NCBI GenBank assembly: GCA_035944135.1
Contig: DASZBM010000004.1
Location: forward strand, 1 to 64,000
Length of the DNA stretch: 64,000 nt
Direction of reading: 5' to 3'
DNA from: Acidobacteriaceae bacterium
GTDB lineage: Bacteria; Acidobacteriota; Terriglobia; Terriglobales; Acidobacteriaceae
The notes under the pieces were generated by a model. It had not been told where the DNA came from and did not search any database. It worked only from the letters and a program-made list of their open reading frames with translations. Both the position numbers and the translations under genes were made by a program. How positions within the stretch are numbered: the stretch's first letter is position 1; each line of letters begins with the position of its first letter. Positions 32,131 through 63,198 of this stretch are shown piece after piece.

Positions 32131-32692
32131 CGTGAATCTTCCTTAGTGTCCTAGACGTTCTTGAGGAGCTAAAGCAAGCAAGCGGCGAAGGGTGAAGGTG
32201 AAACAAAAACTGCATAAACACAATAGTAGGGCAGCTCCGCGACACGTTCACGCGGAGGAGAACGGAACCCTGAGATTGGTTTTGAATTCCGACGCTGCCA
32301 TAGGCACCGCCGGAGAGTGAATCAACAGACCCGGTCGGAACTCAAGGCGGAGTGCTTTTGCACTCCACGAACGGAGTTGATAGTAGCACGCATTCCGAGG
32401 GTGTTCAGCAACTCAAAAAACTCAAAAATGCGAAAGAGAGACCGTTTGCACCAGAGTCGGTGAAGATTTGGATGTGGGCCAAAAAATGCTTACACGAACG
32501 GTTCAGGAGATGATCACCTGTCCATCATAGAATTGCCGATCGGGAGCGACTTCGGTATACTCAATAGTGCTGCCATATGCCTGCGCGCATGCGACTGAAT
32601 GCCGCTCGTGCAAGGTGACTAACGAGTCTCTCTGGTAGAGGGGCGCCCGCAGCAGACAGCCTTACAAGATTTCTTCAGAACAGGATACGACG
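32131..32692. other. dnaA-rpmH divergent intergenic region
   Basis: 562 bases without a recognisable gene. It contains the rpmH promoter (32533-32561). I see no good match to the DnaA box TTATNCACA here. An A-rich stretch (ACTCAAAAAACTCAAAAATG, about 32411-32430) is present. No tRNA or known leader structure seen. Confidence 0.6.
32533..32561 (+). promoter_or_regulatory. Sigma-70-type promoter of the rpmH operon
   Basis: TTGCCG at 32533-32538, a 17-base spacer, TATACT at 32556-32561: a close match to the housekeeping consensus. The implied leader of the rpmH mRNA is about 125 bases. Confidence 0.75.
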
Positions 32693-32848
32693 ATGCCTAA
32701 GCGCACCTTTCAACCAAATCGCCGCCGCCGGAGCAAGGTTCACGGCTTTCTGAGCCGCATGGCCACCAAGGCCGGCGCTGCCGTGCTCAGCCGCCGCCGC
32801 GCCAAGGGCCGCCACAAGATTGCGGTCTCGGCCGGCTACCGCGACTAG
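32693..32848 (+). CDS. rpmH: 50S ribosomal protein L34
   Basis: 51 residues: [19 protein letters not shown] then [26 protein letters not shown], the full L34 signature. AGGA precedes the ATG. First gene of rpmH-rnpA-yidD-yidC-jag. The short YRD extension at the C-terminus is within normal variation. Confidence 0.98.
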
Positions 32849-33011: not shown

Positions 33012-33455
33012 ATGACCTCCTCCACGAACTTCCGCCTGCGAAAACACGCCGACTACCAGCGCGTGTACAAGGCAGGCCGCAAGCAGTTCGGCCGGCAGAT
33101 GGCGTACTTCTCGGCGCTCCGCGATGCTGACGCTGCCGCGCGCTCCGAGACCACGGGACCGCGCGTTGGACTGACCGTTCCGAAGGCACTCGGCAAGGCC
33201 GTCGCACGCAATCGCATCAAGCGCAGGCTGCGCGAGGCCGTCCGCGGCGCGCTGCCGCTGCTCTCCGCACCCGTGGACGTTGTGCTGCATCCGAAGCGCA
33301 CTGTGCTCGAAGCTGACTTCACCCTCATCCAGCGCGAGGTCGAGACGATCTTCCGCAGCGTGCAGGCCGCGGCGGAGAACCCGGTCGCCCCATCAGCAAC
33401 CCGTCGAAGCAACAAACCGGTAGCTCAGCCCCTCGGCGCCGGGATATCGCGGTGA
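33012..33455 (+). CDS. rnpA: Ribonuclease P protein component
   Basis: 147 residues. The family motif is clear: [29 protein letters not shown]-terminal [22 protein letters not shown] matches the typical substrate-binding face. A 30-residue C-terminal tail rich in Ala/Pro/Ser is longer than in most homologues. Works with the rnpB RNA at 49677-50163 to mature tRNA 5' ends. Overlaps yidD by 4 bases (GTGA). Confidence 0.96.
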
Positions 33456-33799: not shown

Positions 33800-35632
33800 T
33801 TGCCAGAGTTTCGTAACCCCAATGCAGGCGGCGCCGGAAGCCAGGACAACCGCTCTTTTCTCGTCATGTTCGTCGTCATGATGGGCGTGATCTTCGGCGT
33901 CCAGTACTGGCGCATGAAGACCAACCCGCCTGCCCCGCAGAACGCGCCCGCCACTACGCAGTCCGCTGCCCAGACGAACGCGCCCGCGCAGTCGAACGCA
34001 GCCGCGCAAACCGCCGCCAACGCAGCGACGCAGACGCCTGCGGTTCAGGCCTCTGCCGCCACCGAGACCGTCGTCGAGAACGAGCTGTACCGCATTACCT
34101 TTTCGAACCGCGGCGGCGACGTCACCTCCTGGATCCTGAGGCGTCAGAAGGATCAGGACGGTAAGCCGCTCGATCTGGTCGATCACGTCGCTTCCGCGAA
34201 GTTCGGCTATCCGATGTCGCTCTACACATACGACTCGGGGCTGAACCAGACGCTGGCCAACGCGATGTTTGTTCCCTCCGCGACGGGAACCCTCGAGGCG
34301 CCGTCGACGCTGAGCTTCCACTACGCAGCCAACGGCCTCGATGTGACGAAGACCTTTACCTTCGGCCAGGATTACCTCATCCACGCCGACACGCTCGTAC
34401 TCAAGAACGGCGCTCCGGTGCGCGCGCTGCTCTCCTGGCCTTCGGGCACGGGCGATCTGGTGGTCCCGCACCTGCAGGGCAGCCACTACCCGTCCGACAC
34501 TTCGGTCGACACCATGCAGAACGGCAAGGACGACCATATCGCCTCCAAGAAGGTGGCTGGCGGAGCCACGCTGAACGGCCCGTTCGACTTTGCCGGTGTA
34601 AGCGATCAATACTTCGCCGCCACCATCCTGCCGGACCACACCCAGACCGCCACAGCCGTCACACTGCACAATCAGCTCTCCCTGAATGACCTCGAGCGTG
34701 CCGCGGGCAAGCCCGTGGGCAAGGACGTTCAGCTTCCGATCATCGGTGCGGCCGTCGGCGACATCTCCGGGCACAACCAGGAGCGCGTCTTCGTCGGCCC
34801 GAAGTACCTGAAGCTGCTGAAAAGCATCAAGACGGTCGATGGCTATTCGCTCGAGCCGCTGCTGAACTTCGGCTTCTGGGGACCCGTCGCGAAGTATCTG
34901 TTCGTCGGGCTGCAGACAGTTCATTCCTGGATCGCCCCTTCGAACGCGACTGCGAACACTCCTCATGACTTCTCTTGGGGATGGGCGATCGTTCTCTTCA
35001 CTGTCCTGATCTACATGTTCCTGGTGCCGCTGCGCTTCCAGAGCATGAAGGGCATGCTCAAAATGCAGCGGATTCAGCCGCAGATTGACGCGATCAAGGC
35101 CAGGTACGGGAATCCGAAGCCTACCAGCCCAAAGATGGGCGAGATGAACGCCGAAATCATGGATCTGCAGAAGAAAAACGGCGTCAGCATGTTCGGCGGT
35201 TGCATCCCAACCCTTGTCCAGCTCCCGCTGCTGTTTGCCTTCTTCGAGATGATGGAGAAGGTGGTCGAGCTTCGTCAGTCTCACTGGTTCTGGATCAAGG
35301 ACCTGAGCCAGCCGGACCCCTACCACATTCTGCCGATCGTCATGGTTGTGACCAGCTTCCTCGTGCAGTTCTATACGCCCTCACCCGGCGTCGACCCCGC
35401 ACAGCAGCGCATGATGGCCTTCATGATGCCGGCCTTCTCCGGCTACTGGACCTGGTACTACGCCGCAGGGCTCGCACTCTACTGGAACGTCGGTAACTTC
35501 ATCATGGTCGGCCAGCAGCTCGTCCTGAACCGAACGGCGCTCGGCAAGGAGATGCGGGAGATCCAGCTCAAGCGGGCTGAAGCCAAGGCCAGGGCCAAAG
35601 CGGCTCCCAAGACCATTGCGGGGAGGCGATAA
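33800..35632 (+). CDS. yidC: Membrane protein insertase YidC
   Basis: 610 residues. Start is TTG at 33800; an in-frame stop 13 bases upstream excludes earlier starts, and AGGAA lies 9 bases before it. N-terminal membrane anchor (FLVMFVVMMGVIFGVQYW), an Ala/Gln/Pro-rich linker (about 38-80), the large periplasmic P1 domain (about 85-350), then the conserved insertase core with about five membrane helices (KYLFVGLQTVHSWIA, GWAIVLFTVLIYMFLVPL, FGGCIPTLVQLPLLFAFFEMM and on). Inserts and folds inner-membrane proteins, alone or with SecYEG. Confidence 0.97.
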   Translation: MPEFRNPNAGGAGSQDNRSFLVMFVVMMGVIFGVQYWRMKTNPPAPQNAPATTQSAAQTNAPAQSNAAAQTAANAATQTPAVQASAATETVVENELYRITFSNRGGDVTSWILRRQKDQDGKPLDLVDHVASAKFGYPMSLYTYDSGLNQTLANAMFVPSATGTLEAPSTLSFHYAANGLDVTKTFTFGQDYLIHADTLVLKNGAPVRALLSWPSGTGDLVVPHLQGSHYPSDTSVDTMQNGKDDHIASKKVAGGATLNGPFDFAGVSDQYFAATILPDHTQTATAVTLHNQLSLNDLERAAGKPVGKDVQLPIIGAAVGDISGHNQERVFVGPKYLKLLKSIKTVDGYSLEPLLNFGFWGPVAKYLFVGLQTVHSWIAPSNATANTPHDFSWGWAIVLFTVLIYMFLVPLRFQSMKGMLKMQRIQPQIDAIKARYGNPKPTSPKMGEMNAEIMDLQKKNGVSMFGGCIPTLVQLPLLFAFFEMMEKVVELRQSHWFWIKDLSQPDPYHILPIVMVVTSFLVQFYTPSPGVDPAQQRMMAFMMPAFSGYWTWYYAAGLALYWNVGNFIMVGQQLVLNRTALGKEMREIQLKRAEAKARAKAAPKTIAGRR

Positions 35633-35837: not shown

Positions 35838-36437
35838 ATGGAAGACCTCGCCCAGGCGGCTGAACGAGTAGCCTCCCTGATGCGCATCCTGACCTCGACC
35901 GGAGGTCTTCGGCTCAAGTACCGGATCACCGCCGGCGCCGGCGCGGCCGATCCTGACGGCTTCGAGCGCCGCGACATCTACGTGGAGTGCAAAGGTCCGG
36001 ACGCCGGGCTTCTTCTCGATCGCGACGGCGAACTGCTGCGCGCGCTCGAGCACATCACGGCCAAGGTCCTGCGCCTCGAGCCCGAGGAGCACGACCGCAT
36101 CTCCTTCGACGCCGACGGCTACAAGGCCGCGCGCGTTCGCCATCTCCGCCGCCTCGCCGACGACGCCATCGACCGGGTGGACGACACCAATCGCCCCTAC
36201 AGCTTCCCCCCCATGAGCTCCCGCGAGCGCCGCATGCTGCACCTCTTCCTGCGCGACAGCGGCCTCCAGACGGCCAGCTCCGGCGAGGGTCCCCGCCGCT
36301 TCGTTGTCCTCTATCCTGAGGGCTACCGCATCCCCCCGGAGGGCGAACGTGAGCGCTCCGGCTACGGCGACCGTGGAGGCTATGGCCGCGGCCGCGGACC
36401 GCGCCGCGGTGGTGGTGGCGGCGGTCGCCGGTACTAA
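35838..36437 (+). CDS. jag: KH-R3H RNA-binding protein (Jag/KhpB-like)
   Basis: 199 residues. A KH-like domain (about 45-95: IYVECKGPDAGLLLDRDGELLRALEHITAKVL), R3H domain (about 120-162: FPPMSSRERRMLHLFLRDSGLQTASSGEGPRRFVVLYP), then an Arg/Gly-rich tail (GRGRGPRRGGGGGGRR). The usual Jag_N domain is missing. Position after yidC is conserved. Probably binds RNA; in other bacteria KhpB acts with KhpA in post-transcriptional control and cell elongation. Confidence 0.88.
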   Translation: MEDLAQAAERVASLMRILTSTGGLRLKYRITAGAGAADPDGFERRDIYVECKGPDAGLLLDRDGELLRALEHITAKVLRLEPEEHDRISFDADGYKAARVRHLRRLADDAIDRVDDTNRPYSFPPMSSRERRMLHLFLRDSGLQTASSGEGPRRFVVLYPEGYRIPPEGERERSGYGDRGGYGRGRGPRRGGGGGGRRY

Positions 36438-37101: not shown

Positions 37102-38340
37102 GTGTCCTCAGCAACCATTACGCCGCCTGCCGAACGAGGGAGAACCGAAACCGTGTCTACAGCAGCCAACATGCCCGACGCAGCGCCCACCGGCAACCTG
37201 GAGATCACGGTCTCGCGAGCAGAGCTGCTGCGCGAGCTCACCGCCGCTCAGTCCGTCGTCGAGCGCAAGACGACGATTCCAATCCTTTCGAACTTCCTCT
37301 TCGAAGCCACCGAAGACGGCAGGCTGACCATCACCGCCACCGATCTCGACCAGTCGCTGCATACGAGCTGCGCGGCCAAGGTGAAGAAGCCCGGCGCCTG
37401 CACCATCCCCGCGCGCAAGCTGTACGACTACATCAAGCTGCTGCCCGAAGGTGACATCTCCATCAAGCTGATGGACAACCACTGGGTGCAGATCCGCGCC
37501 GGCCGCTCCAACACCAAGATGGTCGGCATGGCGCGCGCAAACTTCCCGCAGGTGCCGCAGTTCCCGGCGGCGGGCGGATACAAGATCAACGCCGTCACGC
37601 TGCACAACATGATCGCCAAGGTGATCTTCTCCATCTCCAACGAGGAGTCGCGCTACACGCTCAACGGCGCGCTGCTCGTGCTCAAAGCTGAGTCCATGGC
37701 GATGGTCGCCACTGACGGCCACCGCCTCGCGCACATCGAGAAGACCGGCGAGCCCATCGAAGGCATCTCCGGCGAAAAGAAGACCCTGATTCCGCGCAAG
37801 GCGCTCGCCGAGCTCAACGGCCTGCTCGCGAACATGGAGCCCAGCAAGGACAAGGCGCCGCAGTTCATCGAGTTCGCCGATGACGATCAGACGCTCTTCT
37901 TCAAGGTCGGCGGTCGTGTGCTGACCTCGCGCAAGCTCACCGGCCAGTTCCCCAACTACGAGGCCGTGCTCCCGCGCGACAACAACAAGTTCGTCATCGT
38001 CCGCAGCGAGGACCTGATGGCCTCCATCCAGCGCGTCGCTCAGTTCGCCGACGAGCGCTCCGGCGCCATCAAGATCCGTCTCGAGCAGAACGAGCTCAAG
38101 CTCTCCGCGCAGTCCACCGACGCCGGCGAGTCCGAAGACATCATCGAAACGCCCTACAACTACGACCCGCTCGTCGTTGGCTTCAACAGCTCCTACCTGG
38201 TCGATTTCCTCCGCGCCATCGGCCTCACCGGCGAGGTCCGCCTCGAGTTCAAGGACGCGCAGTCCGCCGGCCAGATGCGCCCCGAGGACGGCAACGAAGA
38301 AACCCGCTACCGCTACATCCTCATGCCCATGCGCATCTGA
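37102..38340 (+). CDS. dnaN: DNA polymerase III beta subunit (sliding clamp)
   Basis: 412 residues. Clamp core starts at LEITVSRAELLRELTAAQSVVERKTTIPILSNFLFEA and ends with the expected YILMPMRI. Three repeats of the clamp fold fit the length. GTG at 37102 is preferred because AGGAG lies 6 bases before it; this gives an unusual 32-residue polar lead (with later possible starts at 37153 and 37171). Tethers Pol III to DNA. Separated from dnaA by the rpmH operon instead of following it. Confidence 0.97.
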   Translation: MSSATITPPAERGRTETVSTAANMPDAAPTGNLEITVSRAELLRELTAAQSVVERKTTIPILSNFLFEATEDGRLTITATDLDQSLHTSCAAKVKKPGACTIPARKLYDYIKLLPEGDISIKLMDNHWVQIRAGRSNTKMVGMARANFPQVPQFPAAGGYKINAVTLHNMIAKVIFSISNEESRYTLNGALLVLKAESMAMVATDGHRLAHIEKTGEPIEGISGEKKTLIPRKALAELNGLLANMEPSKDKAPQFIEFADDDQTLFFKVGGRVLTSRKLTGQFPNYEAVLPRDNNKFVIVRSEDLMASIQRVAQFADERSGAIKIRLEQNELKLSAQSTDAGESEDIIETPYNYDPLVVGFNSSYLVDFLRAIGLTGEVRLEFKDAQSAGQMRPEDGNEETRYRYILMPMRI

Positions 38341-49675: not shown

Positions 49676-49676
49676 T

Positions 49677-50163
49677 TGTGCAGGCGGCCCGTAAGCCGAA
49701 TTCTGTTCTAAGCGATCATTCCTCTAGGCTCGCCATTGCTGACGAACTCCAGCAACCTACCCGCAGGTTTCAGCCGCCTGGGCCTAAGCCCAATGCTCTC
49801 TTCGCCTGAACGCAACGGGCCGCTGCGCGCCGCCGCCTGAAGAGAAGCGAACGGACTCCCTGCCTATTTGGTCTTGCTCCGTGTGGGGTTTACCGTGCCG
49901 TTCGCATTACTGCGGACGCGGTGGGCTCTTACCCCACCCTTTCACCCTTACCCCGGCCTGTTAGCCCGGAATCGAGCGCCGAAGCGCCTGTCCGGCAGAA
50001 CCGGGGCGGTTTGCTTTCTGTTGCACTTGCCGTCTACGGGCCTTGACGCCCGCATCCCGGACGTTATCCGGCACACTGCCCTGCGGAGTTCGGACTTTCC
50101 TCCCCCGCGCAACACGCCTCACAGCGCCCGCGCGGCAGCGATCACCCGGCCGCCTGCACCGGT
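49677..50163 (-). ncRNA. rnpB: RNase P RNA, bacterial type A
   Basis: Catalytic RNA for tRNA 5' maturation. On the minus strand: P1 arms GGTGCAGGCGGCC (50160-50148) and GGGCCGCCTGCAC (49690-49678), the conserved GAGGAAAGTCCGAACTCC (about 50103-50086), ACAGAAAGCAAACCGCC, GGTAAGGGTGAAAGGGTGG, GGCACGGTAAACCCCAC, and the 3' block AGAGGAATGATCGCTTAGAACAGAATTCGGCTTA. Length about 487 is somewhat larger than E. coli M1 RNA (377), mostly in an extended arm near 49790-49870. Ends are estimated from P1. Its promoter must lie within the start of the divergent GH10 gene. Confidence 0.96.
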
Positions 50164-54134: not shown

Positions 54135-55385
54135 ATGCGAGCCTCCGATCAACGCGAATCCATCAAAATGGCGCTCGACACACTCCGCGCCAACAAACTC
54201 CGCTCCGCACTCACGATCCTCGGCATCGTGATCGGCGTAATGACCGTCATCACAATTTCGTCGGTGATCAATGGTTTGAATACAAGTGTTTCGACCATGG
54301 TCGAACAGTTTGGCACCAATGTACTTTGGATCTTCCGCTTTCCGGTCATTGGCGTGCGCCCCACCGCCGAGATGCTCGCCCGCAAGCAGATGACCTACGA
54401 CGACATGGTCGCCATCTCGCAGCTTCCGCACGTCGTCGCCGCCTGCGCCGGCCTCCAATACGAGAACTACCAGTTCAACTCCGGCTCCGAGAGCGCGCAC
54501 TACGGCATGCGCAAGTCCGAGAACGTCGGCCTTGAGGGTGAGACACCGTCCTACGCCCAGGTCTATGACAAGGCCCTCGAAGCCGGCCGCTACTTCACCC
54601 AGACCGATCAGGACCGCGCCACGGATGTCACCATCCTCGGCCACGACATCGCCCAGGATCTCTTCGGCGGCGCCGAAGACCCCATCGGCAAAGACGTCAT
54701 CATCTCCGGCCGCACCTTCACCGTCATCGGCGTCTTCGACCGCGTAAAAAACGCCTTCGGCGGCGGCAAGAATCCCAACGACTCGATGGCCTACTTCCCG
54801 CTCTCCACCTTCCACAAACTCCACCCTGAAATCCTCGACTACTGGATCAGCGCCAAGTTCGACGACCAGAAAAACAAGGACCTCGTCACCGACGAAATCC
54901 GCGAGCTCCTCCGCCGCCGCCGCAAGGTCCTCAACGCGCAGGACGACAACTTCGCCATCTTCTCCTCCGACGCCATCACCCGTCTCTGGAACCAGATCAC
55001 CGGCTCGCTCTTCCTCCTCATGTTTGGCCTCTCCGCCGTTGGCCTCATCGTCGGCGGCGTCGGCGTCATGAACATCATGCTCGTCTCCGTCACCGAGCGC
55101 ACGCGCGAGATCGGCGTCCGAAAAGCCATCGGCGCCACCAAAAAGGTCATCCTGCTTCAGTTCACCCTCGAAGCCATCGTGCTCTGCGCTGTCGGCGGCG
55201 TCATCGGAATCCTTCTCGGCTCGGCCCTCGCCTTCGGCGTCCACTTCCTCATCGCCTGCACCGTCAGTTTCCTCTGGGTCCTCGCCGCCTTCCTCTGCTC
55301 CTGCGCCATCGGCCTGGTCTTCGGCATCTACCCTGCCTACAAAGCCGCCAACCTCGACCCCATCGAAGCCCTCCGCTACGAATAA
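54135..55385 (+). CDS. MacB-like ABC transporter permease (paralogue)
   Basis: 416 residues, same topology as the 52396-53622 product: N-terminal helix (LRANKLRSALTILGIVIGVMTVITI), MacB_PCD, then LIVGGVGVMNIMLVSVTERTREIGVRKAIGATKK and two more helices, ending IYPAYKAANLDPIEALRYE. Paralogue, probably originally adjacent to the first permease; they may form a heterodimer. No Shine-Dalgarno sequence precedes the ATG at 54135 (repeat arm) or a later ATG at 54168. Confidence 0.9.
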   Translation: MRASDQRESIKMALDTLRANKLRSALTILGIVIGVMTVITISSVINGLNTSVSTMVEQFGTNVLWIFRFPVIGVRPTAEMLARKQMTYDDMVAISQLPHVVAACAGLQYENYQFNSGSESAHYGMRKSENVGLEGETPSYAQVYDKALEAGRYFTQTDQDRATDVTILGHDIAQDLFGGAEDPIGKDVIISGRTFTVIGVFDRVKNAFGGGKNPNDSMAYFPLSTFHKLHPEILDYWISAKFDDQKNKDLVTDEIRELLRRRRKVLNAQDDNFAIFSSDAITRLWNQITGSLFLLMFGLSAVGLIVGGVGVMNIMLVSVTERTREIGVRKAIGATKKVILLQFTLEAIVLCAVGGVIGILLGSALAFGVHFLIACTVSFLWVLAAFLCSCAIGLVFGIYPAYKAANLDPIEALRYE

Positions 55386-55583
55386 GGCAGTGAAGCAGTG
55401 AAAAGTGAATAAGGCCGGGTGCCCCATTCATACGCGAAGCGGATGAGTGGGTATCGCGCGTGGTAGCGCGCGAGTGCCTTCGCTTTTCTGGCTGTCATCC
55501 TGAGCGGAGCGAAGGACCCGCTTTTGCCTTCTTCACTATTCACTACTCACTATTCACTGACTTCTAGCCGATAAACTAAACAA
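55385..55583. repeat. Composite intergenic repeat block
   Basis: Contains, in order, a degenerate left arm (GTGAAGCAGTGAAAAGTGAATAAGG, 55390-55412), a GGTGCCCCATTCAT ... GGATGAGTGGGTATCGCGCG block (55418-55465) with self-complementary parts, a TGTCATCCTGAGCGGAGCG REP-like motif (55493-55516) and a right arm (CTTCACTATTCACTACTCAC, 55531-55560). Each module is of a different dispersed family. Confidence 0.75.
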
Positions 55584-56747
55584 GTGGACTCCCTCGCGCT
55601 CGCTGCTGAGCTCTTCACCGCACTCCTCACCGCCAGCGGCATCATCTACAGCGCGCTCGCCCTCTGGGCCGCCCGCCGATTCGCCCGCACCCCCGCCCCG
55701 CAACCCGATCCCGCCTTCACCCCCGGCATCTCCATCCTCAAGCCCGTCAAGGGTCTCGACCCCCACATGCACGCCGCGCTCGTCAGCCACTGCACCCAGA
55801 ACTACGCTGGCGAATTCGAGATCCTCTTCGGCGTGAGCTCACTCGACGACCCCGCCGTCCCCGAAGTCGCCCGCCTCCGCGTCGACTATCCCCACATCCC
55901 CATCCGCCTCATCGAGTGCCCCGCGCGCCTCGGCCCCAACGGCAAACTCTCCAACCTCACCCAGATGCTCCCGCACGCCACCCACGAGCACATCCTCGTC
56001 AACGACTCCGACATCCTCGTCTCCCCCAACTACCTCACCCACATCGCCGCCGCGTTTCAACAAGAGAACACCGGCCTCGTTACCGCACCCTACATCGGCA
56101 TCGCCTCCGGCACCCTCTGGTCCCGCCTCGAAGCCCTCGGCATCTCCACCGACTTCATCCCCGGTGCGCTCACCGCTCGCGCCCTCGAAGGCGGCCTCCG
56201 CTTCGGCCTCGGCTCCACGCTCGCGACCACCAAATCCGCACTCGCCAGCATCGGCGGCTTCGCCTCCCTCACCGACCAGCTCGCCGACGACTACGAGCTC
56301 GGCGCCCGCCTCCACCGTGCCGGCTATCACGTCTCCCTCCTTCGCGAGGTCGTCGCCACCTCCATCCCTGCCTACAGTCTCCGCGCCTTCTGCGACCACC
56401 AGCTCCGCTGGGCCCGCGGCACCCGCGACTCCCGCCGCGCCGGCTACATCGGCCTCGGCATCACGTATGTCCTCCCCTGGGCCGTCCTCACCGTGCTCGC
56501 ATCCGGCGGCGCCCTCTGGAGCCTCACCCTCCTCTCCATCGCCCTTCTCGCCCGCATCTCCGTCGCCCTCATCATCGGCGTCGGCCTCCTGCGCGACACC
56601 CAGATCCTCCGCGACCTCCTCCTTCTCCCCCTCCGCGACTTCTTCGGCCTCTTCTTCTGGCTCTGGTCCTACGCCTCCGACACCGTCGTCTGGCGCGGCG
56701 AACACTTCCGCCTCCACCGCGGCCATCTGCAGAAGTTAGGAAGTTAG
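55584..56747 (+). CDS. hpnI: Family 21-like glycosyltransferase (HpnI / ceramide glucosyltransferase-like)
   Basis: 387 residues. N-terminal membrane helix, GT2-fold catalytic domain (ISILKPVKGLDPHMHAALVSHCTQNYAGEFEILFGV; NDSDILVSPNYL as the DxD motif; LADDYELGARLHRAGY; HQLRWARGTRDSRR as Q/RxxRW) and two or three C-terminal helices. This is the pattern of HpnI, which adds N-acetylglucosamine to bacteriohopanetetrol, and of ceramide glucosyltransferases. No other hopanoid gene is in the window, so the symbol is tentative. GTG start without clear ribosome-binding site. The last residues KLGS and the TAG are encoded by the GTTAGGA repeat. Confidence 0.8.
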   Translation: MDSLALAAELFTALLTASGIIYSALALWAARRFARTPAPQPDPAFTPGISILKPVKGLDPHMHAALVSHCTQNYAGEFEILFGVSSLDDPAVPEVARLRVDYPHIPIRLIECPARLGPNGKLSNLTQMLPHATHEHILVNDSDILVSPNYLTHIAAAFQQENTGLVTAPYIGIASGTLWSRLEALGISTDFIPGALTARALEGGLRFGLGSTLATTKSALASIGGFASLTDQLADDYELGARLHRAGYHVSLLREVVATSIPAYSLRAFCDHQLRWARGTRDSRRAGYIGLGITYVLPWAVLTVLASGGALWSLTLLSIALLARISVALIIGVGLLRDTQILRDLLLLPLRDFFGLFFWLWSYASDTVVWRGEHFRLHRGHLQKLGS

Positions 56748-56890
56748 GAGTGAGGAGTCAGGAATAGAAGTTAGGAACTCAGGGGTGAGGAGTTAGGTAG
56801 AGAAGTCAGGAAGTTAGGGGTGAGGAGTTAGGTATAGAAGCTAGGAAGTTAGGGCTGAGGAGTCAGGAATAGAAGTTAGGAGTTGCTGAG
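56733..56890. repeat. GTTAGGA/GTGAGGA tandem array at hpnI 3' end
   Basis: About 20 units of 7-8 bases (AAGTTAGGA, GTGAGGA, GTCAGGA, ATAGAAG), starting inside the last codons of the hpnI-like gene. Largest array in the window. The three-base phase is broken repeatedly, giving stops in every plus-strand frame. Confidence 0.85.
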
Positions 56891-56913
56891 TAGGAGCTGC
56901 GAATTTATGACCC

Positions 56914-57069
56914 GCAATCTCCCGTAGCGTTCCTTAGCGCTCCTTGGCGACCGTTGCGTCAAGGTCTTTGCTTTTGCCCTTGCTTTTCTTTCCGTCATCC
57001 GCGAAGGGAATCTGCTCTTGCCTTCGCTTTATTCACTACTCACTACTCACTGACTAACCACTAACCACT
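56914..57069. repeat. CTTTGCG-type copy 4, REP fragment and reverse arm
   Basis: CTTTGCG-type copy 4 at 56914-56978 (CCGTAGCGTTCCTTAGCG, CCTTGGCGACCGTTGCGTCAAGG, TTTGCTTTTG); CGTCATCCGCGAAGGGAATC at 56992-57011; then CTTTATTCACTACTCAC and TAACCAC units at 57027-57069, which on the minus strand encode the end of the DUF1003 gene. Confidence 0.75.
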
Positions 57070-57897
57070 TGCCTTACCCCTCAACCTATCCTCCACATCA
57101 TCCAACTTATCCCCCAGCGCATGCAGCTTCCTCGACAGCGCCTGGATCTCCGACTCCGCCCTCCGGTTCACCTGAAAATCCAGCTCTGATCTCACGCGGT
57201 CCTTCGCATCCTGCCGGTTCTGGCTCATCATGATCACCGGCGCCTGGATCGCCGCCAGCATCGACAAGAACAAATTCAGCAGAATAAACGGATACGGATC
57301 CCACGCATGCTTCTTGAGCGTGACGTTGATCAGCACGTACACGATCTCAACGAAGAGGAACACGCCAATAAACGTCCACGATCCGCCGAACGACGCCACC
57401 TTATCGGCCACTCTCTCGCCCAACGTCTCCGACTCTTCGTACACCTCATTCGGATTCCGCGCCGCGCGCACCCGCACAATCTTTTGCGTGGAATGAATCT
57501 CCCGCGCCAGCGCCGTCATCATGTCCAGCCCCGCCATCGGTTTGCTTGTAATCAGTTGCTCAAGATCGTTGCGGTCGATCACCAGGCACTTCGTCGCTTC
57601 CATCGCCACCGCCGAAGTCGCATGCGGAGAGTCATCCATCATTGAAGCGAAGCCAAAGAATTCGCCATGATGCGGCTCTGAAAACACAACCTCCTGCCCG
57701 TCTTCGTCGAGCAGCGTCACCCGCACCCATCCGCTCATCACGACAAACGCGTTCGCTCCCGGGTCACCGGCCTTATAGATGCGTTGTTTCGCCGCAAACT
57801 CACGCTTCTCCACCTGTTGCGCCAGGACAGCCAGCTCATCATCGTCAAGCAAAGAAAACAGCGGCACGGCACGTAGTTCGTCAGCACTGGAAGGCAT
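57061..57897 (-). CDS. Cyclic-nucleotide-binding domain fused to DUF1003 membrane protein
   Basis: 278 residues from ATG 57897. Residues about 10-125 form a cNMP-binding fold (LFSLLDDDELAVLAQQVEKREFAAKQRIYKAGDPGANAFVVMSGWVRVTLLDEDGQEVVFSEPHHGEFFGFASMMDDSPHATSAVAMEATKCLVI). The DUF1003 part (about 150-278) has two membrane helices (WTFIGVFLFVEIVYVLINV; PFILLNLFLSMLAAIQAPVIMMSQNRQ) and a coiled-coil tail (SEIQALSRKLHALGDKLDDVEDRLRG). The Arg that binds cyclic nucleotide phosphate is not obvious (HATSAVAM in place of RSAT/RAA), so the ligand is uncertain. Final SG and stop come from the TAGTGGT repeat. Confidence 0.88.
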   Translation of the reverse strand: MPSSADELRAVPLFSLLDDDELAVLAQQVEKREFAAKQRIYKAGDPGANAFVVMSGWVRVTLLDEDGQEVVFSEPHHGEFFGFASMMDDSPHATSAVAMEATKCLVIDRNDLEQLITSKPMAGLDMMTALAREIHSTQKIVRVRAARNPNEVYEESETLGERVADKVASFGGSWTFIGVFLFVEIVYVLINVTLKKHAWDPYPFILLNLFLSMLAAIQAPVIMMSQNRQDAKDRVRSELDFQVNRRAESEIQALSRKLHALGDKLDDVEDRLRGKASG

Positions 57898-57968
57898 AGC
57901 TCGGATTCCTCGCACTCAGCTTATCGCGGCGCCGACTCCCAACCCTAGGTCAGTTCGCTGACGCCCCG

Positions 57969-59771
57969 CTAGAATCCCGTCTTTGCCAGGAAGACCATGT
58001 CAAATCCGTTGCCGGATGTGGAGAGGTAATTTGTTGCAGAGGAAAGAAACACTACGTAATGGCCGTCTTTGCTGATCTTGGGGTAGTCATTCACTCCGTT
58101 GGACTGAACAGCAAATCCGGTGGCATTGCTAACCGAAACTCGAACCGTGCTTGGTGTGCATCCGTCCGGTGCGCCGAAACAGGTGTCACGAACGAAGATA
58201 TCCTTCCAGCTATTCGGCGTGAACGTATCTCCCGGAACGAGGTTGCTGGCGAGCGATGCGAAAGCGATGAAGCGGCCACTGCCACTGATGCTCGCATTGT
58301 TCTGGCTGGCGTTGGCGATCGATCCGTCATTGCCGAGCGATGCTATCACCGTTGACGGCGTACAAGAGGCAGATGAACCATTGCACGTATCCCTGAGATA
58401 GACGTTTCCAAGCCCATTGACATTCTGCGCCACCAGGTTGGTGGCCAGCGTCGAAAACGCAAGAAACCGGCCGTCTGAGCTGATCGACGGATTTGAAGAG
58501 GTATCGAGTGCCCCACCATTTGCGGGCGCACCAGCCGTTGAAACATCCTGTTGCGAAGTCGTCGGAGTGCACGCTGTCGAAGCTCCGAGGCAGGTGTCGC
58601 GTAGAAACAGATCTGGGTTCCCGGCGTTCGCGGTCGAAGGCACAAGGTTCTTCGCGTAGGAAATAAACGAGACGTAGCGGCCGCCCATACTCACGTTTTG
58701 ATATTCACTCAAGGCGTCAGCGGGGATGCCGGACGCCGATTGAGAGATCAACAGCGTGGAAGACGCACAGCCACTTGGCGCTCCATTGCACGTATCGGTC
58801 AGGTAGACATTATTCGTTCCGCTCGCAGTGCCCGTAGAGTTATAGCCGACATATCTTCCGTCGGGACTGAGCGTTGGAAGCCCTCCGCCGGCGGGCTCTC
58901 CGTCCAGCAGGTGCGAGACCAGAATCGTACTTGGAATGCAGGCTGCCGTCGCTCCGATGCACGTATCGCGCAGGTAAACGCAATTGTCACCCGCAGCCGC
59001 GTAGCAAAACGACGGCTCCCCGGCGACGATGTTTGACGCCTGCGAGTCAAACGCAACATATCGCCCATCATCGCTTACCGACGAATCGCGGCTGTGATTA
59101 TCAACGGCGCCGCCGTTATACGTCACCGTGATCGGGATTGTGCTCGGCACGCAGTTCGCCGCTGCCCCAATGCAGGTATCGCGCTCGTAGATTTGTTGGT
59201 AGCCACTCGTAACGCCCGCGCCCAGATTCGTCGCGGAGGATTGAAAAGACACATATCGGCCCGTTGCGCTGATGGACGGCGCGACCAGGCTGCTGCCATT
59301 CGCCGGTGTGCCGTCAGGCGCCGCAGTGATCAGAGCCACCACGCCGGCCGTAGCCGCAGCCGGTGATGCGATTCCAAACGTCAAAGCCGCGGTTGTATAC
59401 CCGGAAGAAGTGTCATGAATAGTGATCGACGCTGTGCCAGGATTGGCGATCATCGCCGCTGTCACGGATGCACTCATGTCCGTACTCGAACCCAGTTGAG
59501 TCGGAAGAGCCGTTCCGTTCCACTGAATCACGCTGCTGCCGCTAAATCCCGTCCCGCTCACAAGAAGAGTGAAGCCCGGTTCGCCCGCGACAACCCACGT
59601 AGTGCCCGCCTGCATTGCATTGAAGGGTGCCACCGTAGAAAGCGTGATCGGGTTCGAGCCGTTTCCACCGCCGCCACCACCGCTACCGGCGGAGCTCGAA
59701 GTCGCGCAACCGCACAGTGCAAGCCCACTCGCAAACAGCGGACCCAGCCAATGAATTTTCCTGATCATCAA
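57969..59771 (-). CDS. PD40 (TolB-like) beta-propeller lipoprotein with IPT/TIG domain
   Basis: 600 residues. Lipobox LALCGC (Cys near residue 22), a Ser/Gly-rich linker, an IPT/TIG-like domain (about 65-135: FTLLVSGTGFSGSSVIQWNGTALPT), then a WD40-like PD40 propeller with repeated ISxxGRYVxFxSxAxNLV units each followed by a Cys-containing D-T-C-x-G-A blade (RDTCIGAAANC, RDTCIGATAAC, TDTCNGAPSGC, RDTCLGASTAC, RDTCNGSSASC, RDTCFGAPDGC). The paired Cys in each blade probably form disulfides in the periplasm. Function unknown. Confidence 0.8.
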   Translation of the reverse strand: MMIRKIHWLGPLFASGLALCGCATSSSAGSGGGGGGNGSNPITLSTVAPFNAMQAGTTWVVAGEPGFTLLVSGTGFSGSSVIQWNGTALPTQLGSSTDMSASVTAAMIANPGTASITIHDTSSGYTTAALTFGIASPAAATAGVVALITAAPDGTPANGSSLVAPSISATGRYVSFQSSATNLGAGVTSGYQQIYERDTCIGAAANCVPSTIPITVTYNGGAVDNHSRDSSVSDDGRYVAFDSQASNIVAGEPSFCYAAAGDNCVYLRDTCIGATAACIPSTILVSHLLDGEPAGGGLPTLSPDGRYVGYNSTGTASGTNNVYLTDTCNGAPSGCASSTLLISQSASGIPADALSEYQNVSMGGRYVSFISYAKNLVPSTANAGNPDLFLRDTCLGASTACTPTTSQQDVSTAGAPANGGALDTSSNPSISSDGRFLAFSTLATNLVAQNVNGLGNVYLRDTCNGSSASCTPSTVIASLGNDGSIANASQNNASISGSGRFIAFASLASNLVPGDTFTPNSWKDIFVRDTCFGAPDGCTPSTVRVSVSNATGFAVQSNGVNDYPKISKDGHYVVFLSSATNYLSTSGNGFDMVFLAKTGF

Positions 59772-59884
59772 TGAGCCCGCAGGGACACGAATCGCCTCGA
59801 ATGCCCTGTCGACCGTGAATCATAGGTTCTCATCGCCCTCCACACAAGGAACGACGAGCAATCCACCTGGAAATCCGACTGCCC

Positions 59885-59953
59885 GCCCCTTACCCCCTAC
59901 CCCTACCGCTTACACCCTCTACCCTCTATCTTCTATCTTCTATCCCCTGCCTA
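59885..59953. repeat. GGTAGAG/GATAGAAG-type array at parB 3' end
   Basis: On the minus strand TAGGCAGGGGATAGAAGATAG and then further GGTAGAG units follow the parB GAG codon; the parB TAG is the first repeat stop. Unpaired (no facing arm). Confidence 0.75.
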
Positions 59954-60889
59954 CTCCCCAAGTCCCCTCTCGCCCAACGCCCCCAGAATCGCATCGAAGT
60001 CATCCACGCCCGAATACTCGATAATCACCTTGCCCTTGCCCTTCTTGTCCTCGATCATCACCTTCAGGCCCAGCTTCCGCCGCAGCCGGTCCTCCGCCTC
60101 GCGCACATTCGGATCCACCAAACGCTGCTCCACCAGCTTCACCGGCTTCGCCACCATCTCCGGATTGATAATCCCCTGCACATACTTCTCCGTCGACCGC
60201 ACCGACAGATTCAAATGCAGCACCTTCCACGCCGCCGTCGAGATCTTCTCCGGCGGAAGCGCCAGCAGCGCCTTTGCATGCCCGAAGCTCAGCGTGCCCG
60301 ACTCCACGTGCATCTGCACATCCATCGGCAGCTTCAGAAGCCGCAGAAAGTTCCCAATCGAAGGCCGGTCCTTCCCCGTCCGCAGCGACATCTCTTCCTG
60401 CGTCATCTTGAACTCCCGGCTTAGTCGCTCAAACGCATGCGCCTGCTCCATCGGGTTCAGGTCCGCACGCTGCAGGTTCTCCACGATGGTCATCTCCATC
60501 GCCTGCACATCCGAAACCTCGCGCACGATCGCGGGAATCGTCGCCTTTCCCGCTCGCTGACTGGCCAGCCACCGCCGCTCACCCGTAATCAGCGTGTATC
60601 GCCCATTATCGCCCTTGCGTACGATTATCGGCTGCACCACCCCCGACGCCTTGATCGACGCCGCCAGTTCGTCCAGCTTCTCCTCGTCAAAACCCTTGCG
60701 TGTCTGGAAAGGGTTCCGATCGATCAGCTCCACCGGAATCTCCAGCGGCTTGCCCTCCGCCACCGGCGCCGCCGCACTCGCGGCAATCTCCACAACCTCC
60801 GACGCGGGCTTCGGCCGCGACGGCAGTAAAGACTCCAACCCCCGCCCCAACGCCTTCCGCTTCACATCTCCCGCCACCGCAGTCGCCAT
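59951..60889 (-). CDS. parB: Chromosome-partitioning protein ParB
   Basis: 312 residues from ATG 60889 (AGGA 7 bases upstream; 60895 is an alternative). N-terminal KRKALGRGLESLLPSRPK, the ParB/CTPase domain (IPVELIDRNPFQTRKGFDEEKLDELAASIKASGVVQPIIVR, TLITGERRWLASQRAGKATIPAIVREV with the GERRW CTP-binding motif, ENLQRADLNPMEQAHAFERL), HTH (MTQEEMSLRTGKDRPSIGNFLRLLKLP) and a C-terminal dimer part. Loads and spreads at the parS sites at 62100, 62546 and 62581. Confidence 0.96.
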   Translation of the reverse strand: MATAVAGDVKRKALGRGLESLLPSRPKPASEVVEIAASAAAPVAEGKPLEIPVELIDRNPFQTRKGFDEEKLDELAASIKASGVVQPIIVRKGDNGRYTLITGERRWLASQRAGKATIPAIVREVSDVQAMEMTIVENLQRADLNPMEQAHAFERLSREFKMTQEEMSLRTGKDRPSIGNFLRLLKLPMDVQMHVESGTLSFGHAKALLALPPEKISTAAWKVLHLNLSVRSTEKYVQGIINPEMVAKPVKLVEQRLVDPNVREAEDRLRRKLGLKVMIEDKKGKGKVIIEYSGVDDFDAILGALGERGLGE

Positions 60890-60926
60890 AAACATTTCCT
60901 TTCCTTACCGAGCCAACCAAAACATC

Positions 60927-60977
60927 CGTCATCCTGAGCGAAGCCTTCGCGAAGCGGAGGCGCAGTCGAGGGACCCC
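60927..60977. repeat. REP-like TCATCCTGAGCGAAG motif
   Basis: GTCATCCTGAGCGAAGCCTTCGCGAAGCGGAGG, with an internal CTTCGCGAAG palindrome, then GCAGTCGAGGGACCCC. Shares the first 13 bases and the GAAGGACCC/GAGGGACCC end with 55493-55520. Confidence 0.65.
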
Positions 60978-61035
60978 GATACTCTTCGCCCCTTCACAAC
61001 CGCCTGGCCCTTTTTGGCCAGGAACCTCTAACTCG

Positions 61036-61149
61036 CCGCACAGCCGCCGTGGCGTCCCTTTGCGTTTTCCTTTGCGCCCTTAGCGTCAAAGCTTTTGCCT
61101 TTGCTCTTACTAACCACTAACCACTAACCACTCGCCCTACTACTCCCTA
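61036..61149. repeat. CTTTGCG-type copy 5 followed by TAACCAC array
   Basis: Copy 5 at 61036-61105 (CCGTGGCGTCCCTTTGCG, CCTTTGCGCCCTTAGCGTCAAAGC, TTTTGCCTTTGCTCTTAC), then three TAACCAC units (61109-61130) and CTACTACTCC units that supply the parA stop on the minus strand (61150-61152). Confidence 0.8.
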
Positions 61150-62064
61150 CTACTCCCGCCCGAACGGCCAAACCCTCTTCGCCTTCGGCGTACTTATGAT
61201 CGGCCGCTCCGCTACCGGAGGTATCTCGTCCAGAATCAGCTTCTTACCCGGTCTCTTCGCCTCGACCCCATGCCGTTTCAGCAGCTCCACCGCCAGCTCC
61301 TGGTACGCCTCCGAGCCCTTGGACTTCGGGTCATAAACCATCACCGGCTTCCCATGACTAGGCGCCTCCGCCAGCCGGATATTCCGCGGAATCGTGGTCG
61401 TAAACAGCTTGTCGTTGAAGAAGCTCCGCAGGTTCTCCCGGACCTGCTGCGACAGGTTCGTCCGCTCATCGAACATCGTCAGCAGCACGCCTTCCAACCC
61501 CAGGCTGGGATTGAACGCCGCCGACACCTTATCCAGCGTCGAAATCAGCTCCGAAATCCCCTCCAGCGCAAAGTACTCCGCCTGCATCGGAACAAGCAGC
61601 CGATCCGAAGCCACCAGCGCATTCAGCGTCAACAGATCCAGCGCCGGCGGACAATCCAGGAAAATGAACCGGTACTTCTCCCTTACCGGCTCCAGAGCCT
61701 CACGCAGGCGAAACTCCCGCTTCTCCGCCACGACCAGTTCCACATTTGCGCCGATCATGTTCTTCGTTCCGGGAATCAGCGACAGGTTTTCAATCTCCGT
61801 CGCGATCGTCGCCTCTTCTGCCGTCGCCTCGCCAACCATCAGGTCGTAGACCGACGAGCGCTCCTCATCCCGCGCGACGCCCAATCCAGCGGTCGTATTG
61901 GCCTGCGGATCGCAGTCAATCAGCAGCGTCTTAAGTCCTTGCATTGCAACAGCAGCAGCCAAATTAATAGCCGTCGTGGTTTTGCCGACGCCACCCTTTT
62001 GGTTGACGACCGCAATCACGGAGCTGGTTTCAGTTTTCTCGGGGGTCTTCGCGTCGTCCGGCAT
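61150..62064 (-). CDS. parA: Chromosome-partitioning ATPase ParA
   Basis: 304 residues. Deviant Walker [15 protein letters not shown], Walker A' [16 protein letters not shown], Walker [23 protein letters not shown] 35-residue tail ([32 protein letters not shown]) extends past the usual end. Drives segregation of ParB-parS complexes. Upstream of parB on the same strand, 260 bases away because of the repeat block. Confidence 0.96.
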
Positions 62065-62099
62065 CTTGTGAGCCTCAGGCTAACAGATGGCTCCCAAAT

Positions 62100-62115
62100 T
62101 GTTCCACGTGGAACA
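62100..62115. promoter_or_regulatory. parS site 1
   Basis: TGTTCCACGTGGAACA, a perfect 16-bp palindrome matching the parS consensus TGTTnCACGTGnAACA, 36 bases upstream of the parA ATG. Confidence 0.92.
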
Positions 62116-62154
62116 ATTGGACCAAATTGTGCGTTTCCGGACGCAAATACCTCT

Positions 62155-62463
62155 TCAAATCTCCAAATCTTGGTGTTTTCGCGGAATAACCCCCCGATAT
62201 CGCTCCAATTTCGGCTTGTGCACCTTTCGCTGCAGCGGCTTGTAAGCCATATGCCGTGCCCCGCGCAACGTGACTAAAAGCAGCAGTGCCAACACAAGTC
62301 CCGGCCCAAGCCACGGAGTATGCATTGCGCGAAGTATCAGCGTCGGAATGTCCGGAAGCTTTGCCGCTAAAGCAAAGTGCTCCGCGCTCGCGGCTCGTGG
62401 TGTCGGCGAGGCAGAGTGGATATTCAGGAGAAGAAAAACAACAAAAGACCCAACGGAGCGCAC
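62155..62463 (-). CDS. Hypothetical small membrane protein between rsmG and parA
   Basis: 102 residues. GTG start at 62463 with GGAG 6 bases upstream. Signal-like N-terminus (MRSVGSFVVFLLLNIHSASP), a membrane helix (WLGPGLVLALLLLVTLRGA, about 51-69), then a basic tail with 11 Lys/Arg. Ends 40 bases before parS site 1. An overlapping longer frame (62075-62527) runs through parS and lacks such features. No family recognised. Confidence 0.45.
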   Translation of the reverse strand: MRSVGSFVVFLLLNIHSASPTPRAASAEHFALAAKLPDIPTLILRAMHTPWLGPGLVLALLLLVTLRGARHMAYKPLQRKVHKPKLERYRGVIPRKHQDLEI

Positions 62464-62545
62464 GTCCTGCTCCCGTATTGCGTGATCCGGCTCTATGGCC
62501 GGACCATCGGATTTTCAGTGATATCACAGACGCTGGCTGATGAAT

Positions 62546-62561
62546 TGTTCCACGTGGAACA
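62546..62561. promoter_or_regulatory. parS site 2
   Basis: TGTTCCACGTGGAACA, identical to site 1; 35 bases (start to start) from site 3. Lies just past the rsmG stop. Confidence 0.92.
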
Positions 62562-62571
62562 ATTTGCCAGA

Positions 62572-63198
62572 TCAGCCGATTGTTCCACGTGGAACAATTT
62601 GCCGGATCACCAGACGTCTGTGTTCAGAGGATGGGATTCTCAATTCCTCGGCATCTGTTGCATCGATCTCGCGCCCGACCAGCGCGGCGATCCAGCCACC
62701 ATCACGGACCCGCTCTGCGGCGTGGTCCATCGCGGTGGGCATCTTCTCGACGGCACGCATGGTTACAGCGTCGAAGCGGCGAGAATCGGGCAACTCTTCA
62801 ACCCGGCGCGGCCAGACTTCGGCCGTCAGGTTGAGGGTCCGGATGACCTCACGGAGGAAGGCGACCTTCTTGGCTTGGGATTCGGCGAGGGTTACGCGAA
62901 TCTTCGGGAGAAGCATTTGGATGGGGAGGCCTGGGAAGCCGGGGCCGCTACCGTAGTCGAGAAGCTCGGCGTCAGGGGCTAAGCGAGTTGCAAGGTGCTG
63001 GGCGGTGAAGAAGCTTTCGCCGAAGTGGCGCTGGATAATCTCTTCCGGGTCGCGGATGGCGGTGAGGCTGACGCGGGAGTTCCAGCGGATCAGGAGATCC
63101 AGGTAATCGGAGACCTGCTGGATGAGCGGGTCGGAGAGTTCGAGCGATGTGAACGGGGTGAGAAGGGCGCGGATCTGGTCGACCGAGAGAGCAGCCAT
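62572..63198 (-). CDS. rsmG: 16S rRNA (guanine-N7) methyltransferase RsmG
   Basis: 208 residues from ATG 63198, which overlaps the stop of the upstream gene by one base (TAATG). SAM-binding motif LLDYGSGPGFPGLPIQMLLP, then RVTLAESQAKKVAFLREVIRTLNL and VTMRAVEKMP fit RsmG (GidB), which methylates G527 of 16S rRNA. A longer frame to 63300 lies inside the upstream gene. The last eight residues are encoded by parS site 3. Usual gidB-parA-parB order, with a small protein between. Confidence 0.95.
   Translation of the reverse strand: MAALSVDQIRALLTPFTSLELSDPLIQQVSDYLDLLIRWNSRVSLTAIRDPEEIIQRHFGESFFTAQHLATRLAPDAELLDYGSGPGFPGLPIQMLLPKIRVTLAESQAKKVAFLREVIRTLNLTAEVWPRRVEELPDSRRFDAVTMRAVEKMPTAMDHAAERVRDGGWIAALVGREIDATDAEELRIPSSEHRRLVIRQIVPRGTIG
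62581..62596. promoter_or_regulatory. parS site 3, inside the rsmG coding end
   Basis: TGTTCCACGTGGAACA read on both strands; on the minus strand it encodes V-P-R-G-T near the rsmG C-terminus (IVPRGTIG then stop). Confidence 0.92.

Follow-up and report, generated by a model that had tools for sequence, protein, structure and literature searches.

Bacterial leading strands are G-rich and their genes are usually co-oriented with them; a switch from C-rich to G-rich along the plus strand has the sign of a replication origin (oriC), the usual place of which is the gap between dnaA and rpmH. Origins in thousands of genomes have been called from such a GC-skew switch. In the human genome, skew N-domains combine abrupt upward jumps of skew with gradual declines. 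Cyanobacteria with irregular skew replicate from multiple, DnaA-independent origins, according to excerpts of PMC7198777. In excerpts of two further papers (PMC4148992 and PMC3174227), GC skew appears in figure legends, in methods and in a remark on uniform GC content, and we did not find the pattern described below in the open-licence literature on GC skew and origins in Acidobacteria or on sawtooth skew in bacteria.

Here, we analyse bases 1–64,000 (the window, 64,000 nucleotides in all) of a 200,753-bp contig, C4, from an Acidobacteriaceae bacterium whose genome of 4,430,068 bp lies on 10 unordered contigs; genes were called with a purpose-made simple caller and not taken from an annotation. 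The locus resembles an ordinary oriC with parABS near dnaA and gid in that a dnaA-rpmH-rnpA-yidC-jag-dnaN cluster, an rsmG-parA-parB block and parS sites occur within about 31 kb, together with a C-rich to G-rich switch. In contrast to such an origin, however, the dnaA cluster and the switch are about 30 kb apart, a crossing of the opposite sign falls at dnaA, and the genome contains many equal switches without DnaA boxes. The likeness to cyanobacteria, as they are portrayed in the excerpts of PMC7198777, is an irregular skew that one origin does not explain, in genomes in which dnaA may be present; their V-shape is described there as collapsed, whereas the local skew here is extreme and forms a sawtooth. 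The profile has in common with human N-domains its sudden rises and slow falls of strand skew, but the present case is bacterial and has a scale of 20–100 kb. The amplitude at silent sites is also far larger here than in human N-domains. This genome-wide sawtooth is the surprise beyond the single switch at 62 kb.

A strand-asymmetry switch at the parABS locus

An earlier note on the window had described a C-rich to G-rich switch from hand counts of G and C per 60 bases on the plus strand. All seven counts are exact on recount (7/7), and the switch is confirmed, with a mean G minus C per 60 bases of −6.88 at 56,000–62,300 and +7.25 after 62,310. The maximum-likelihood change point places it at 62,310 (62,210–62,820). 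The flip had also been said to be irrespective of gene strand, and this holds at fourfold degenerate sites: parB, parA, rsmG and the next gene are all on the minus strand, yet their plus-strand skew runs −0.77, −0.60, +0.53 and +0.61; gene strand therefore does not account for the switch. Measured with 2-kb flanks, the jump (0.43) is the largest, at percentile 1.000, of the 11,790 positions tested in this genome. The cumulative-skew minimum of the window falls at 62,314, and the window also contains a full opposite crossing, with a cumulative maximum at 32,643 in the dnaA–rpmH gap. Along the whole of contig C4, the minimum is at 140,404 and not at 62 kb; a genome-wide skew minimum far from 62 kb is what the earlier note had named as evidence against an origin there, and contig C4, as far as it extends, shows one.

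The switch is embedded in a locus with the hallmarks of a ParABS centromere, a parA–parB pair with clustered parS palindromes. parB (59951–60895, minus strand) has Pfam ParB_N, HTH_ParB and ParB_C domains, and parA (61150–62064, minus strand) matches Pfam AAA_31/CbiA. The parS sites, perfect palindromes of the sequence TGTTCCACGTGGAACA, lie at 62100–62115, 62546–62561 and 62581–62596, the third inside the 3′ end of rsmG (gidB; 62572–63198, minus strand; Pfam GidB); the three sites reported earlier are thus all perfect, with 0.22 expected when up to three mismatches are allowed. The ParB relatives belong to Granulicella, Terriglobus, Acidobacterium and their kin, and parS within two mismatches is present at 68 of the 80 relatives' loci. 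Between rsmG and parA, a small open reading frame (102 amino acids, minus strand, 62155–62463) has no Pfam match; a comparable space between the parS sites is seen in many relatives. rsmG or parS-like sites are displaced by 5–8 kb from parA in the relatives L082, L134 and L121. Intergenic stretches resembling short repeats (for example, 'gaagttaggagtgaggag' and 'ctaaccactaaccact') occur at 55385–55560, 56740–57080, 59880–59960 and 60930–61160.

The dnaA–dnaN cluster lies 24–31 kb from the switch. The sole dnaA of the genome (30715–32130, minus strand) borders the dnaA–rpmH gap (32131–32692), in which the G-rich to C-rich crossing falls and which has no DnaA boxes. On the other side, all on the plus strand, are an open reading frame for a 51-amino-acid L34-like protein (32693–32848), read from the sequence, conserved in three relatives and taken by us to be rpmH; rnpA (33012–33455; Pfam Ribonuclease_P); yidC (33800–35632; Pfam 60KD_IMP and YidC_periplas); a jag-like R3H gene (35838–36437; domain match); and dnaN (37171–38340; three Pfam DNA_pol3_beta domains). 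An RNase P RNA (class A) is encoded at 49676–50157 on the minus strand. Alignment of four sequences of the dnaA–rpmH gap revealed conserved motifs that look like promoter blocks and not like DnaA boxes, and an oriC defined by these motifs was accordingly rejected. A scan with the consensus DnaA box found no cluster at parS or at dnaA. At 62,065–62,880, where no clear box had been seen before, it gave a single site with two mismatches, in the gap there; this interval has the dnaA/dnaN/gid/parAB neighbourhood expected of an oriC and lacks the DnaA-box cluster.

A genome-wide sawtooth of skew

In 1.0 Mb of the 4.43-Mb genome there are about 16 switches of this kind, the one at 62 kb among them. 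Strand asymmetry flips every 20–60 kb, the G:C ratio at fourfold degenerate sites passing from about 4:1 to 1:4; contig C4 flips about nine times in 200 kb, and 400-kb stretches of contigs C10 and C2 do likewise. Over 200 windows of 5 kb, fourfold GC skew has a standard deviation of 0.38 and GC content rises with absolute skew (r = 0.66). The extreme 5-kb windows have C 0.65 and G 0.17, or G 0.67 and C 0.16, and in both kinds A and T are close to equal. Plateaus of positive and of negative skew are alike. Cytosine deamination alone was rejected, because simple C-to-T change does not fit a pattern in which A and T are nearly symmetric while G and C swing. A gene-strand or coding bias was likewise rejected as the cause, since skew in plus-strand and minus-strand genes of the same 5-kb window is strongly correlated (r = 0.80, 116 windows) and the coding effect, at −0.068, is small. 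Nor are genes preferentially co-oriented with the G-rich strand (38/63, 51/153, 101/194 and 106/242; 296/652 in sum).

The teeth are asymmetric in shape. In a sample of 1.4 Mb (C4, parts of C10 and C2, and the complete relative G007), the median transition width is 3.25 kb for C-rich to G-rich (up) switches (n = 11) and 14.9 kb for G-rich to C-rich (down) switches (n = 12; p = 0.0005). The difference is robust in 21 of 21 settings, 15 of them with all bases (p = 0.0001–0.014) and six at fourfold sites, corrected for coding strand (p < 0.0001). Change points with a log-likelihood ratio above 50 and 6-kb flanks number 15 up versus 3 down, and those above 120 with 10-kb flanks 10 up versus 1 down; this list was picked by size, so that averaged profiles are selection-biased while the up/down comparison is unaffected. 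Jumps above 0.2 with 6-kb flanks are 4 up and 0 down at 55 relatives' parB loci, 9 up and 2 down in 40 pieces of G007 (two of which adjoin the 400-kb stretch) and 2 up and 1 down in 13 pieces of the strain's own genome (one of which overlaps the C10 stretch). Up and down jumps are about equally frequent when the flanks are 3 kb and the thresholds low. A sign-flip test on 100-kb blocks is significant in the strain's own genome (p = 0.0008–0.013, 10 blocks), and not significant in G007 alone (p about 0.37, four blocks) or in the weakly skewed G002 (p = 0.18–0.31, four blocks).

Two candidate markers of the switches were rejected. Short C-rich and CGTAAACAC words are enriched but occur in only 5–6 of 16 of the strain's switch windows, which does not make a G-quadruplex or a common motif of them. 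tRNA genes have no evident link to switch points, with none in the window and the rest of C4 and few in 40 other loci.

parS sites and skew in relatives

Five further perfect parS sites lie far from parAB (C1:5571, C1:556339, C2:752936, C10:762373 and C10:941974). A smaller C-rich to G-rich switch is close by at three of these five. The 2-kb jumps at the four of them other than C1:556 kb, where the sequence covered is only 3 kb, are 0.15, 0.04, 0.16 and 0.24 (p = 0.0015 for the mean; p = 0.0007–0.003), and at C10:762 kb there is almost no switch (0.04–0.07). Most of the strain's switches have no parS within three mismatches. Among 57 relatives' loci with parS and 3-kb flanks, an up jump above 0.15 occurs in three and a down jump in one, and the mean jump is 0.004 versus a background of −0.011. 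On both counts, its absence from most switches and the absence of a switch beside it in most relatives, parS was rejected as a general cause.

The positions of the switches are specific to lineages. Among species, the parAB block as a whole ranges from C-rich (down to about −0.4) to G-rich (up to about +0.4); mean skew correlates at 0.98 above 85% parB DNA identity (three pairs) and is unrelated by 66–69% identity (225 pairs). Skew is therefore inherited over a short distance. Large switches near rsmG–parA also occur in Granulicella aggregans (L122, at 8,940–9,240) and in L100 (at 9,090–9,230), in both cases at the start of parA and no more than about 500 bp from the last parS; these two loci and that of our strain are mutually 61–66% identical in parB DNA. 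Around the rsmG–parA gap of G. aggregans there are 10 parS sites with at most one mismatch (L122:7036–8744).

G007, a single contig of 3,928,701 bp, has perfect parS only beside parAB. Its skew is negative in 20 of 27 sampled pieces of 20 kb at 0.5–2.15 Mb and positive in 14 of 15 at 2.15–2.62 Mb, with the switch at 2,149,390 (2,149,040–2,149,480), 8.7 kb from the start of dnaA. Its parS sites (2.1156–2.1165 Mb) are 33 kb from this switch, inside the C-rich arm, and the skew there therefore points to dnaA and not to parS. G007 provides the best evidence on this question, and suggests that the group has one main origin, the skew mark of which is not necessarily at parS.

Proposed fork divergence and a candidate origin

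The earlier note had proposed a probable origin at the parS sites. Its neighbourhood stands, with parABS in place and the dnaA–dnaN cluster nearby; its skew argument is only partly supported, as skew is undiagnostic in a genome with many equal switches, and because of these the 62-kb switch alone is no proof of an origin. In favour of an origin at 62 kb are the strongest 2-kb switch sampled, the parS sites, dnaA–dnaN 24–31 kb away, the similar rsmG–parA switches in two distant relatives and the smaller ones at three of the four other testable parS. Against it are the presence of a switch in only 3 of the 57 relatives, the cumulative-skew minimum of contig C4 at 140 kb, the opposite crossing at dnaA, the lack of DnaA boxes, and the complete relative G007, which switches near dnaA and not at parS. 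The strongest candidate for the strain's main origin, as yet unproven, is the 62-kb point; in our estimate, the probability that this origin falls no more than about 1 kb from the locus is roughly one in three.

Our preferred reading, which we hold tentatively and rate somewhat short of probable, is that the 62-kb switch is one tooth of a sawtooth produced by lineage-specific fork divergence and, among these points, the leading candidate for the main origin. We infer that the asymmetry would record the prevailing direction of forks, the exposed lagging-strand template gaining G; forks would therefore move apart from an abrupt switch and converge across a gradual crossing. Besides its main origin, the chromosome would have lineage-specific points of initiation or restart. 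Several observations count against fork divergence, namely genes that are not co-oriented with the G-rich strand, the lack of DnaA boxes, the position of dnaA–rpmH at an opposite crossing, the relatives' parS, mostly without a switch, and the replichore-scale switch of G007, which lies at one place.

Competing explanations

The main rival, in our view somewhat unlikely, is a single ordinary origin with unusually strong replichore skew, cut by many inversions into blocks, each of which would retain its former skew for as long as substitutions had not worn it away; on this view, the switch at 62 kb would mark either the real origin or an inversion end. Gene order between C4 and G007 is heavily shuffled, as an inversion mosaic would have it. 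dnaA and parS are about 6–88 kb apart in the 14 same-genus relatives readable on one contig, with dnaA pointing toward parS in nine and away in five, which also speaks for inversions, as do the arm-scale skew kept in G007, with more mixing far from dnaA, and the similar plateaus in both signs. Inversion ends should be equally sharp, however, yet up switches are far sharper than down switches. Furthermore, the two switches at which gene order could be tested do not lie at breakpoints but in undisturbed neighbourhoods, one in rsmG–parA and the other inside a single-copy gene with uniform orthology.

At the first of these, rsmG lies immediately upstream of parA in 55 of the 64 relatives with room to test, so the 62-kb switch is not at a gene-order break. 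parB, parA, rsmG and the next gene form a collinear row common to our strain and G007; the row is uniformly C-rich in G007 (−0.73 to −0.87, coding strand) and flips between parA and rsmG in our strain. The second switch, at C2:702,680, is inside a gene whose nearest paralog in the same genome is 35% identical, and a paralog-mediated inversion was rejected there for want of a close paralog. Orthologs of this gene in 15 relatives are 86–91% identical, with protein identity even across both halves. Fourfold skew in our strain is −0.24 in the left half and +0.79 in the right half; in the orthologs of 13 of the 15 relatives, the difference between the two halves never exceeds 0.34, and whole-gene skew ranges from about −0.8 to +0.84. 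A lolE-like gene at C2:903,680 lends weak support, its codon-position values being unusable with minus-strand loci left unturned.

Strand-biased repair or conversion that spreads from fixed points, such as break hot spots or sites of ParB/SMC loading at parS, and not from initiation, is improbable. It would suit the change of G and C at the cost of every other base, with A and T nearly symmetric, the rise of GC with absolute skew (r = 0.66) and the association with parS in the strain's own genome, but most switches have no parS within three mismatches, and resection of broken ends would, assuming that exposed strands gain G, predict the opposite sign. More improbable still is homologous recombination with relatives of opposite skew that would have brought in long tracts with ends inside conserved genes: import would account for intact genes with a sharp internal switch and for lineage-specific positions, but both ends of a tract should be equally sharp, and none of the relatives read is more than 85% identical to the DNA on the right-hand side of the C2 switch, which was therefore not recently imported from these.

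Implications

The rule by which origins are called from a skew switch gives many answers in this clade, and origin calls here therefore need replication data. On a broader proposal, which we consider unlikely, replication of these acidobacterial chromosomes would, over evolutionary time, start at many lineage-specific points spaced about 20–100 kb apart, with parS marking some of them, and would leave a bacterial, N-domain-like sawtooth at silent sites; the ParABS centromere would be at, or help to define, points of fork divergence. If the sawtooth does not reflect fork direction, what is left unexplained is a strong process of mutation that is strand-asymmetric and starts sharply at particular points. 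If it does, replication in a bacterium whose dnaA is intact would begin or restart at many points, against the rule of one origin per chromosome.
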